Positions 11,017 to 12,771 of a stretch of 20,527 nt of DNA are shown piece by piece. The stretch spans positions 1 through 20,527 of the IMG/VR virus record IMGVR_UViG_3300042401_000641. One strand, written 5' to 3'. A program made the position numbers and the translations under genes. This stretch comes from a virus. The notes beneath the pieces were generated by a model. The model was not told the DNA's origin and made no database searches. It saw only the letters and a program-made list of their open reading frames with translations. Each line of letters starts with the position of its first letter. Position 1 is the stretch's first letter.

Positions 11017-12078
11017 ATGAATAACAATAGAAAGAAAGGTATTAGCTCGCATAAAAGATTGAGGTTAAATGATTCGGAGATTGAATTAATTAATCAATAC
11101 AGAGGAATTAAGATTGCAACGGATGAAGCAGATGTAAACGATGAAGATGTTAAACATGGTTGGTTAAAAACTGATAAAGCTAGTTTATTCTTCAAGAATC
11201 CAAATTTTAAAACAGAATCGGAGCAAGGTTTCGAGGTAATCAAAAACGCAACTATTGAAGCGGTAAAAAAGCACGCTCCAAAATACAGAACAATTGAGCG
11301 AGTTGTAGATTTAGAATCTAATCTTTTAGTAATTGATATCGCAGATTTACATATTGGGAAACTTGCTAGCGCATTTGAGACGGGCGAAGACTATAATTGT
11401 CAGATTGCAGTTAAAAGGGCAAAGGAAGGATTGATTGGTATTATTCAAAAGAGTAAAGGATATTCAATTGATAAAATTCTTTTTGTAGCGGGTAACGATA
11501 TTTTGCATACTGATAACACGAAGAGACAAACAACTTCCGGAACTCCACAAGATACGGACGGAATGTGGTATGATAATTTTCTAACTGCAAAACAATTATA
11601 TATTGAACTACTTGAGATGCTGATACCGATTGCGGAAGTTGAAGTGGTTTACAATCCATCCAATCACGATTATACGCATGGATTCTTTTTACTACAATTA
11701 ATTGAGGCACATTTTACAAATACACACGATGTTACGTTTAACGTAGACTTGAAACATCGCAAGGCATTTCAGTACTTTGACAATTTTATAGGCACTACGC
11801 ATGGTGATGGGGCGAAATTAGAAGCATTACCATTGCTATATGCTACGGAACATTCTATTATGTGGGCGAATACTAAGTATAGATACGTTTATACTCATCA
11901 CATTCACCATAAAAGTGGCAAAGACTTTCCAGGTATAACGATTGAAAGCCTACGTTCACCAAGTGGTACTGATTCATGGCATCACAGAAACGGTTTTTGC
12001 GGTGGAGTTAAGGCAGTTGAAGGATATATTCATTCAAAATATAATGGGCAGGTTGCTAGGTTAACGCATTTATTTTAG
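11017..12078 (+). CDS. Phage metallophosphoesterase (calcineurin-like)
   Basis: The 353-residue product has a calcineurin-like metallophosphoesterase core with all five motifs: D110-L-H112 in ADLHIGK, G159-N-D161 in GNDILH, N216-H217-D218 in NPSNHD, H262-G-D264 in THGDG, and H294-H-I-H297 in THHIHHK. These residues bind two metal ions. The ~100-residue N-terminal part (MNNNRKKGISSHKRLRL and on) is basic and then mixed, so it may bind nucleic acid or a partner. Related phage proteins are placed with DNA repair or RNA/DNA phosphatases, so a nuclease or phosphatase role is plausible but its substrate is unknown. A long non-coding leader (10957-11016) precedes it, and the tRNA-like genes follow directly. 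Confidence 0.85.
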   Translation: MNNNRKKGISSHKRLRLNDSEIELINQYRGIKIATDEADVNDEDVKHGWLKTDKASLFFKNPNFKTESEQGFEVIKNATIEAVKKHAPKYRTIERVVDLESNLLVIDIADLHIGKLASAFETGEDYNCQIAVKRAKEGLIGIIQKSKGYSIDKILFVAGNDILHTDNTKRQTTSGTPQDTDGMWYDNFLTAKQLYIELLEMLIPIAEVEVVYNPSNHDYTHGFFLLQLIEAHFTNTHDVTFNVDLKHRKAFQYFDNFIGTTHGDGAKLEALPLLYATEHSIMWANTKYRYVYTHHIHHKSGKDFPGITIESLRSPSGTDSWHHRNGFCGGVKAVEGYIHSKYNGQVARLTHLF

Positions 12079-12086
12079 TATCTTTA
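12079..12086 (+). promoter_or_regulatory. Possible promoter for the tRNA-like cluster
   Basis: TATCTTTA resembles the Bacteroidota -7 element TAnnTTTG except for the last base, and ends 9 nt before the first tRNA-like gene. A TTG at 12053-12055 could be the -33 element, although the 23-bp spacer is long. Transcription could then begin close to the tRNA 5' end. Confidence 0.35.
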
Positions 12087-12094
12087 TATAAATT

Positions 12095-12230
12095 AGTCAG
12101 GTGGCGGAAGGTTGGGGATTGTCCCGACGTGGTAGACGCTATTAGCAGAACACAGCCTAGGACCGATTTGCGTGTCTACATAGGTTAATAATAAAGTGCG
12201 TTCATACAGGTTCGAATCCTGTTCTGACTA
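12095..12230 (+). tRNA. tRNA-like gene (Leu-type arms) with extra D-loop and anticodon-loop sequence
   Basis: Acceptor AGTCAGG (12095-12101) pairs with TCTGACT (12223-12229) with one G-T. D stem GCG/CGC is at 12104-12106 and 12137-12139. T arm ACAGG/CCTGT surrounds TTCGAAT (12206-12222). The core GGCGGAA...GGTAGACGC is characteristic of tRNA-Leu. The D loop holds about 20 extra nt that fold as a hairpin (GTTGGG 12111-12116 with CCCGAC 12123-12128). Directly after the D stem, TATTA (12140-12144) can pair with TAATA (12186-12190). This leaves a 41-nt loop instead of 7, followed by a 15-nt variable region. Total length is 136 nt. The anticodon cannot be assigned. It might be an unusual intron-bearing tRNA, a degenerate one, or a tRNA-like RNA. 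Confidence 0.6.
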
Positions 12231-12288
12231 CTCTAATTAAGCTAGTTTATGAACAGCCTTTGAGGTGGGATGCTCTCATTATAACGGA

Positions 12289-12409
12289 AGTCAGGTGGCG
12301 GAATGGTAGACGCTAAATTTGTGATATAGTTAAGCCTAAATGTTCTTGAGGCGACAGTACGAACATGTATTTAAAAACTATAATGAAGGTTCGAGTCCTT
12401 CCCTGACTA
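12289..12409 (+). tRNA. tRNA-like gene (Leu-type arms) with long insertion in the anticodon region
   Basis: The first 15 bases equal those of the upstream tRNA-like gene (AGTCAGGTGGCGGAA). Acceptor AGTCAGG (12289-12295) pairs perfectly with CCTGACT (12402-12408). D stem GCG/CGC is at 12298-12300 and 12311-12313, with normal-looking loop GAATGGTAGA. T arm GAAGG/CCTTC surrounds TTCGAGT (12385-12401). TAAAT (12314-12318) could pair with ATTTA (12369-12373) as anticodon stem, leaving a 50-nt loop. A competing 7-bp helix TATAGTT/AACTATA (12325-12331 and 12376-12382) crosses it. Inside, GCCT/AGGC and ATGTTC/GAACAT form a pseudoknot-like pattern. If the competing helix carries the anticodon loop, TTTAAAA would give anticodon UAA (Leu), but only after removal of about 38 nt. 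That is speculative. Confidence 0.6.
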
Positions 12410-12411
12410 CT

Positions 12412-12502
12412 AGCTAAATGGTGTAATCGTGAATAAATAGCGAAACTTGTAAACATGGCTATTTTTGATAGTTAGATGCGGGTTAGAATCCCGCTTTAGT
12501 TA
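12412..12502 (+). tRNA. tRNA-Lys(UUU)-like gene with enlarged D loop
   Basis: Acceptor AGCTAAA (12412-12418) pairs with TTTAGTT (12495-12501) with one G-T. Anticodon stem GGCTA/TAGTT (12457-12461, 12469-12473) closes the loop TTTTTGA, which puts anticodon TTT (Lys) at 12464-12466. T stem GCGGG/CCCGC is perfect, with loop TTAGAAT (12483-12489) having A where C56 is expected. The D region is odd: GTGT (12421-12424) and ACAT (12453-12456) can pair, but the loop has 28 nt instead of about 9. A strong rival helix AAATAGC (12435-12441)/GCTATTT (12458-12464) would open the anticodon arm. Only two bases separate it from the preceding tRNA-like gene, so all three probably share one transcript. Confidence 0.6.
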
Positions 12503-12540
12503 AAATTAGGAGGGGATTTTTCATACTTTTTTCCTCAAAT

Positions 12541-12575
12541 AATGCTTACTATTGATTTAGTAGGCATTTTTTTTT
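12541..12575 (+). terminator. Strong terminator after the tRNA-like genes
   Basis: AATGCTTACTA (12541-12551) pairs with TAGTAGGCATT (12558-12568) over 11 bp including one G-T, with a 6-nt loop and nine T's up to 12575. A second possible hairpin, GAGGGGA with TTTCCTC, sits upstream within 12511-12536. Confidence 0.92.
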
Positions 12576-12576
12576 G

Positions 12577-12584
12577 TATATTTG
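12577..12584 (+). promoter_or_regulatory. Bacteroidota-type -7 promoter element
   Basis: TATATTTG matches TAnnTTTG exactly and lies 2 nt after the T tract of the terminator. A TTG at 12552-12554 could be the -33 element with a 22-bp spacer. Transcription would begin near 12590 and produce the ncRNA candidate. Confidence 0.6.
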
Positions 12585-12589
12585 TTTCA

Positions 12590-12771
12590 ACAGTACCTGA
12601 GACGCTTATAATGTGTAGGAGTTCTTGCAGAGCGCACCCGCTTAGGTCTTATTCTGCGTAAGGGAAATTGTTTGCTGTAATACCTGCTAATTTGCATACT
12701 TGCTCAAACATATAACCTATGGAAAACCACCGAGAAGGACTATTGACGAATAGAAACTACTCGGTTTTTTT
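12590..12771 (+). ncRNA. Candidate structured ncRNA of about 180 nt
   Basis: No open reading frame of note occupies this stretch, yet it lies between a matched promoter element and a strong terminator. It contains internal helices visible by eye. GCAGA and TCTGC (in the stretch 12628-12655) enclose a smaller AGCG/CGCT hairpin, CTT/AAG extends the outer helix, and TGTAGG near 12610 can pair with CCTATG near 12717 with two G-T pairs. No known family was recognised; 6S RNA is the only natural rival, but I could not confirm its central bubble. Role unknown. Confidence 0.5.
12729..12771 (+). terminator. Terminator of the candidate ncRNA
   Basis: ACCGAG (12729-12734) pairs with CTCGGT (12760-12765), with an inner CTATT/AATAG hairpin around GACG (12740-12753) and a T run of seven at 12765-12771. 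Confidence 0.85.

Follow-up and report, generated by a model that had tools for sequence, protein, structure and literature searches.

Leu-type tRNA-like genes of a phage with structured inserts in place of the anticodon and variable arms

Introduction

What does a phage obtain from a gene that has the acceptor, D and T arms of a leucine tRNA and a long insert where the anticodon arm should be? The question is raised by a 20,527-base virus record of IMG/VR, analysed here over its whole length and called the window. A comparison of its portal protein with 50,697 phage records gave matches only in the flavobacterial Nonlabens phages P12024S and P12024L, at 33% identity. Three tRNA-like genes lie on the plus strand between a gene end at 12078 and an intrinsic terminator at 12541-12576 (11-bp stem and T run), and the first two contain the inserts. 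A first-pass annotation of these two genes had offered three options, namely an intron or cleavable element of a new type, a tRNA decoy against anticodon nucleases, or decay. We consider it probable that both are non-decoding RNAs in which a Leu-type tRNA chassis carries a structured payload.

Results

Two tRNA-like genes with interlocked helices

Gene 1 (12095-12230, plus strand) was delimited from the sequence and an alignment with homologues; its acceptor pairs 12095-12101 with 12223-12229, followed by the discriminator A12230. Gene 2 (12289-12409, plus strand) was placed with the Rfam tRNA model, with the acceptor formed by 12289-12295 and 12402-12408 and the discriminator at A12409. Both genes showed a 7-bp acceptor, a 3-bp D stem, a T arm (12206-12222 in gene 1, from the sequence and the homologue alignment; 12385-12401 in gene 2, from the sequence and the Rfam model) and a discriminator A, and all arms paired correctly. 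The Leu-type arms and the identical opening 15 bases, AGTCAGGTGGCGGAA, which the first-pass annotation had described, can be read directly from the sequence. An anticodon stem with a 7-nt loop and U33 was absent from both genes, and the anticodon and variable arms were replaced by approximately 65-70 nt. The Rfam tRNA model scored gene 2 at 38.7 bits and left 61 nt unaligned at the place of the anticodon arm; gene 1 was missed by ARAGORN and, even at E<=1, by the Rfam tRNA model. The check for a normal-size tRNA at the two genes, proposed with the first-pass annotation, returned only the third tRNA of the block from ARAGORN and none there from Rfam.

The elements run in the order D stem, X, short linker, Y, inner domain, X', short linker, Y', one or two bases, T48 and T arm. 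X/X' occupies the place of the anticodon stem and Y' that of the 3' strand of a class II variable arm, and X and Y interlock because the 5' strand of Y lies inside the loop of X. In gene 1, X is TATTA (12140-12144) with TAATA (12189-12193) and Y is GAACACA (12148-12154) with TGCGTTC (12197-12203), both 3' strands being placed by the homologue alignment. In gene 2, TAAAT (12314-12318) pairs with ATTTA (12369-12373) and TATAGTT (12325-12331) with AACTATA (12376-12382). The 3' strands of gene 2 were assigned by pseudoknot scoring, with a score of -13.3, and its helix Y was also recovered in independent folding. Both window genes have the scaffold and the X-Y-X'-Y' closure that define the class.

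These assignments refine the pairings first proposed. The 5-bp stems next to the D stem were retained in both genes, but the homologues placed X' of gene 1 3 bases further, at 12189-12193, so that its loop encloses 44 nt and not the 41 noted. The pairing of the insert with the variable region, which is Y/Y', was likewise correct in both genes, and the two pairings first seen proved to characterise the class. The internal pseudoknot-like pattern may hold for gene 2, whose inner domain (12334-12366) can be written as a possible pseudoknot of GCCT/AGGC with ATGTTC/GAACAT from its sequence; in gene 1, however, the inner domain (CCT-GGAC/GTCT-AGG, 12156-12184) folds as a nested hairpin, in which two compensatory pairs were found among the three homologous sequences. 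A further feature of gene 1, added to the earlier description, is a 20-nt hairpin module in the D loop (GTTGGG/CCCGAC, 12110-12129), which was also formed in independent folding. The module is not found in gene 2 or in the homologues of gene 1. D-loop inserts at the same position were observed in L196, L246, L254 and L266, and the elements of L246 and L266 have related inner inserts but differ in the D-loop module.

The block around the two genes

A box at 12079-12086 (plus strand), TATCTTTA, lies approximately 9 bases upstream of gene 1 and is 1 base off TAnnTTTG, the Bacteroidota -7 promoter consensus. Of 105 related elements, 7 had the exact consensus 2-9 nt upstream; the background frequency was 0.57%. 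No ORF of at least 60 aa was found between the promoter-like box (12079) and the terminator, which from the sequence would close an RNA-only unit beginning at gene 1.

Genes 1 and 2 are separated by a 58-nt spacer (12231-12288, plus strand), which is conserved together with the flanking gene ends in two phages (L285 1355-1478, 89.7% identity; L238 3653-3760, 88%). The spacer may be a separate RNA, and it was observed to be able to form small hairpins. In L285 the similarity (89.7% identity) extends across the spacer into the beginning of a gene-2-like element and then gives way to divergence, so only the 5' part of that element is related; a pattern scan for a full-length homologue of the gene 2 insert was empty. 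Because the similarity stops inside the gene-2-like element, the tRNA-like arrays look like mosaics.

The third gene (12412-12502, plus strand) is a tRNA-Lys (UUU) with a normal 7-nt anticodon loop according to ARAGORN, Rfam and the sequence, and ARAGORN places it at 12430-12503. Its acceptor may alternatively begin at 12412-12418, with 7 pairs; the D loop would then be approximately 28 nt long and would contain an insert too. The block gave 0 matches among 50,697 phage records and was absent from all 12 close relatives of the window phage (relatedness by one protein), with one 14-base match. In one of these, L002 (97% by that protein), the same gene leads directly into a terminator-like stretch. 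The block therefore behaves as a cassette. Separately, a second noncoding RNA unit was observed at 12577-12770, with an exact TATATTTG box at 12577, a conserved start (ACAGTACCTGAGAC), a stem and T run at its end and a homologue in L242 (3535-3710).

Compensatory changes in the homologues of gene 1

The inner-domain pattern of gene 1 matched two IMG/VR contigs, L165 and L298. In the alignment of these three sequences only, 7 of 34 pairs were changed on both sides, with four in the acceptor, one in X and two in the inner hairpin. This number was reached in 0 of 500 shuffles and fell to 0 or 1 when the pairing partners were slid by 1-3 columns. Helix X has, besides its one compensatory pair, one mismatch in L298; helix Y showed no compensatory change in this three-sequence alignment, and its one mismatch is shared by L165 and paired in L298. 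The acceptor of L298 is AGCGCAG/CTGCGCT, and the insert is common to all three elements although this acceptor was rebuilt by four compensatory pairs. Energy-only folding of the single strands gave z of -1 to -3 for the window genes and the two homologues, so it is not a strong test, and the method cannot display pseudoknots.

The scaffold class in IMG/VR

We scanned IMG/VR for the 26-base scaffold AGTCAGGTGGCGGAATTGGTAGACGC, which was found in at least 120 stretches and, after reading the loci from L083 on, at no fewer than 129 places with 112 distinct sequences. The inserts on this constant scaffold were mostly unrelated between phages. Among the matches listed, 120 of 129 places had 26-122 nt between scaffold and T arm; the remaining places had either no T arm in reach (four) or a T arm 310-500 nt away (five). 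A normal anticodon arm was present in 1 of 108 distinct inserts among the matches listed, the two of the window included, and ARAGORN called a tRNA at 16 of 129 places (hand count among the matches listed), some with anticodons of the wrong length. A second scan, in which the acceptor was not selected, gave 112 distinct inserts among the matches listed; 20 of these had a normal anticodon arm, and 48 lacked one and had an acceptor other than GTCAG.

For each insert we combined two helices, the best one anchored at the D stem and its counterpart at T48, and used dinucleotide shuffles as the control. The 84 non-redundant scaffold inserts scored -8.82 in the interlocked X-Y-X'-Y' order, whereas shuffles averaged -6.04 (sd of means 0.51) and none of their 60 means fell below -7.46. 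A score of -16 was reached by 17 of the 84, where 3.7 were expected and the shuffle maximum was 7. The nested order of class II tRNA was not enriched in the same inserts (-6.25 vs -5.48, sd 0.51). Before redundancy removal, the 108 inserts scored -8.91 vs -5.26 in the interlocked order (sd 0.40), and for 43 inserts on other acceptors the enrichment was weak (-8.95 vs -7.35, sd 0.93).

Position 48 was T in 105 of 108 scaffold relatives, G18G19 is kept within the scaffold, and the discriminator was A73 in 127 of 148 elements, of which 6 encode CCA. We clustered 2,020 ORFs near the 148 elements and found no family in more than six loci, and the inserts had no common sequence motif beyond the multiple-testing expectation; neither result indicates a target. 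An upstream stop codon on the same strand lies within 15 nt of the start of 24 of 105 elements, and 86 of 105 share their strand with the closest ORF upstream.

Some tRNA-like genes met in these scans differ from the class. A marine group was excluded, since the anticodon arm of most members looks ordinary and has an anticodon-like GTT, and a candidate in Rhizobium phage RHEph01 was an ordinary tRNA-Leu. The marine group (L086, L089, L109, L118, L119, L144, L152, L168, L171 and L174; acceptor mostly TCTGGGG) has class II bodies with a loop such as CTGTTTA (GTT, Asn-like), a mismatch of body and anticodon. The cultured Tenacibaculum phage pT24 (L294) has, at 1290-1368, 1453-1525 and 1657-1735, two tRNA genes annotated Undet, whose anticodon arm contains an extended hairpin, and a tRNA-Pro apparently without U33. 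Of 13 occurrences of a hairpin with varying stem, TGACAGC..GGAAAGAC..GCAA, 12 lie 1-3 bases upstream of a tRNA-like element (L084, L087, L163, L181, L244, L246, L261, L272, L273, L279, L289 and L298, plus L104), and in L263 and L285 a similar hairpin terminates a longer conserved RNA of approximately 150 nt.

Insert families and distribution

Inner domains were wholly different between phages and, inside small families, conserved with compensatory changes. The Enterococcus family (5 sequences) showed four compensatory pairs, three of them in helix Y and the fourth in the inner hairpin, a result reached in 2 of 500 shuffles. The pair L215/L263 showed two in helix Y and further families also contained cases; one cluster, led by L206, was left out as a spurious mixture. 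In the Enterococcus phage-plasmids and phage EH-TP1, early-region genes lie upstream of the element and terminase or HNH genes downstream, and several Enterococcus records have a late-regulator-type gene (ArpU-type or positive control factor) shortly 5' of it. The upstream DNA is kept, yet the insert at the equal position can differ entirely. Related elements were present in phages EG-TP1, VEsP-1, vB_Edu_21C1 and Geobacillus D6E.

Some Enterococcus elements vary at the discriminator and at T-loop base 55, so charging is not general. The T loop of L307, L308 and L309 was seen to be TGCAAAT, and its G at position 55 would disrupt the usual G18-Psi55 contact. A search of 84,980 prokaryote genomes with two scaffold positions relaxed gave only 3 stretches, each on a MAG contig shorter than 8 kb, and the elements are therefore nearly confined to phages. 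A broader pattern was found in 7 of 395 Bacteroidota genomes. In at least three of these matches, the tRNA-Leu-like genes of L318, L319 and L321, inspection by eye suggested an anticodon arm made of a long nested hairpin, and such genes are distinct from the class.

Class I tRNA-like genes

A scan with a class I D-arm pattern gave 105 distinct inserts among the matches listed, 80 of which had acceptors with at least 6 of 7 pairs; none of these 80 had a normal anticodon arm. The inserts occupy the anticodon arm, and the variable loop looks normal. At the eight class I loci examined with Rfam, only tRNA was returned. The beta family has 11 members, and its stem varied in compensatory fashion in the seven that were parsed. 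The alpha family, marked by ACAGCAA, occurs also in Serratia phage BF, where its genes are annotated tRNA-OTHER and tRNA-Pseudo, in Erwinia and Cronobacter jumbo phages and in Vibrio phages. By eye, ACAGCAA elements were located at approximately 590-720, 1065-1180, 1645-1690 and 2365-2420 of Cronobacter phage GAP32 (L443) and at 1994-2118 of L442. In GAP32 the element is free-standing several times and closed by GAATC...GATTC; in Serratia phage BF it sits inside the tRNA and appears circularly permuted relative to GAP32.

Discussion

Proposed non-decoding RNAs on a tRNA chassis

In both window genes the acceptor, D and T arms and the elbow bases are kept and a structured insert replaces the anticodon and variable arms. 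That the tRNA body serves as a chassis is suggested by sequence together with covariation, and the presence of similar genes with wholly different inserts in many phages suggests a class of phage RNA, so far undescribed, with no role in decoding. Rfam contains no such family, and searches of the open-access literature, which leaves subscription journals and preprints largely outside, found no title or abstract opening that describes such RNAs. We infer that host RNase P and the 3' tRNA-processing enzymes would trim the transcript, that the host would add CCA, and that the product would be stable like a tRNA and unable to read codons. The inner domain may, with less assurance, be a payload that during infection binds a host factor, whether of defence, of RNA metabolism or of translation; payload diversity might reflect different targets or an arms race. 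The role would then presumably be counter-defence or host takeover. Charging with leucine is possible in view of A73, which is compatible with it and not universal.

An insert that is spliced or excised to leave a normal tRNA-Leu would have about the size and position of anticodon-loop introns, and after excision of one piece 2 of 43 inserts on other acceptors did give a canonical Leu anticodon arm, compared with 0.1 expected, so that set may contain a few intron-like cases. In the main set, however, 1 of 84 inserts gave such an arm, where shuffles predict 0.9, and neither window gene did; the helices cross at the very place of the anticodon stem. No exon sequence is conserved next to a splice site, since phages differ in the bases beside the D stem and ahead of the T arm. 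These inserts are far shorter than known group I introns, bulge-helix-bulge splicing is archaeal and eukaryotic, and a cmscan search of the whole window at E<=1 gave tRNA and one sub-threshold sRNA only, with no group I intron. The intron or cleavable element of the first-pass annotation is accordingly disfavoured and we regard it as very improbable. We give still less credence to decay, in which the elements would be pseudogenes of phage tRNA-Leu. Some array elements look truncated (L235, L285), but the architecture is shared by many phages, T48 is constant, position 73 is mostly A and homologous inserts occur on different acceptors. The loss of pairing constraint that marks a tRNA pseudogene was not seen; compensatory pairs are present, and together with the conservation of the scaffold across many phages they contradict the simple decay first suggested.

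Two further explanations assign a use to the tRNA-like shape itself. The elements may act as punctuation, at which RNase P and the 3' tRNA-processing enzymes cut polycistronic phage transcripts while the middle is free to vary; their closeness to upstream stop codons, their agreement in strand with upstream ORFs and the opening of the late region by the element in Enterococcus phage-plasmids fit with this. A free middle would not retain interlocked helices or compensatory changes, however, and the window unit has no 60-aa ORF between its promoter-like box and terminator, which makes this explanation quite improbable. A decoy or sponge is merely unlikely by comparison with these: the RNA would occupy a host enzyme that recognises the tRNA elbow or acceptor (a defence nuclease, a CCA-modifying toxin or LeuRS), and the locked anticodon/variable region would make it resistant. 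The elbow and acceptor are indeed the conserved parts and the elements are phage-restricted, but a decoy alone leaves the structured, hypervariable inner domains unexplained. The decoy proposed earlier survives in this form as one possible function and not through an anticodon loop, since the genes have none; it is a special case of the tRNA-chassis explanation.

If the elements are non-decoding RNAs on a tRNA chassis, a wider reading can be put forward tentatively. Phages of Bacteroidota, Bacillota and Pseudomonadota might keep a large, fast-changing repertoire of trans-acting RNAs on the upper half of class II and class I tRNA bodies, with a pseudoknot-closed slot whose payloads are exchanged by recombination, each antagonising or redirecting a different host factor. 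Such a repertoire might be the RNA counterpart of the protein anti-defence genes swapped in hypervariable loci; we think this wider reading somewhat doubtful. If true, many phage genes that are now dropped or labelled tRNA-Undet, tRNA-Pseudo or tRNA-OTHER would form a separate noncoding RNA class, the odd members of phage tRNA arrays would have a testable account, and phages would provide a natural tRNA scaffold for folded RNA and a new RNA-based route of host interference. Culturable carriers (Enterococcus EH-TP1, vB_Edu_21C1 and Geobacillus D6E; Serratia BF for class I) allow direct tests.

Comparison with known systems

The elements share with class II tRNA-Leu the 7-bp acceptor, the D arm GGCGGAAtTGGTAGACGC, the T arm, A14, G18G19, A15-U48 and, mostly, A73. 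In contrast to class II tRNA-Leu, they have neither a normal-size anticodon stem-loop nor a nested variable arm, X and Y interlock, and 26-122 nt mostly separate the D and T arms among the matches listed. tmRNA contains pseudoknots, and its alanine signal is G3-U70. In the available parts of two sources (PMC3929946, PMC3985003), tmRNA (SsrA) is described as having the top half of a tRNA and lacking the lower half of the cloverleaf. The phage elements, in contrast, are shorter, have a D stem and have T-A as the third acceptor pair. Neither Rfam nor ARAGORN gave a tmRNA match in the window region, where the features of a tmRNA, including a tag peptide frame, were not found; some of these phages have real tmRNA genes that are separate from the elements.

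Phage tRNAs that evade tRNA-cutting defences are also phage-encoded bodies with an altered variable region, as described in the available part of PMC13096335. Unlike the window elements, the tRNAs of that account are functional decoding tRNAs. The YrlA model of Rfam was unmatched in the window, gave nothing at the gathering score in 14 array loci and had one sub-threshold match (29 vs 69 bits) at another phage locus. YrlA, or bacterial Y RNA, is a phage or bacterial noncoding RNA with a tRNA-like module that mimics tRNA. In the scaffold of Ponchon and Dardel, the anticodon arm reportedly gives way to an RNA of interest, for which a stable tRNA body serves as carrier, an arrangement like the one proposed for the phage elements. 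Such an engineered tRNA scaffold for recombinant RNA (PMC3753655, in the part available) is man-made and has no interlocked closure, whereas the phage elements are natural.
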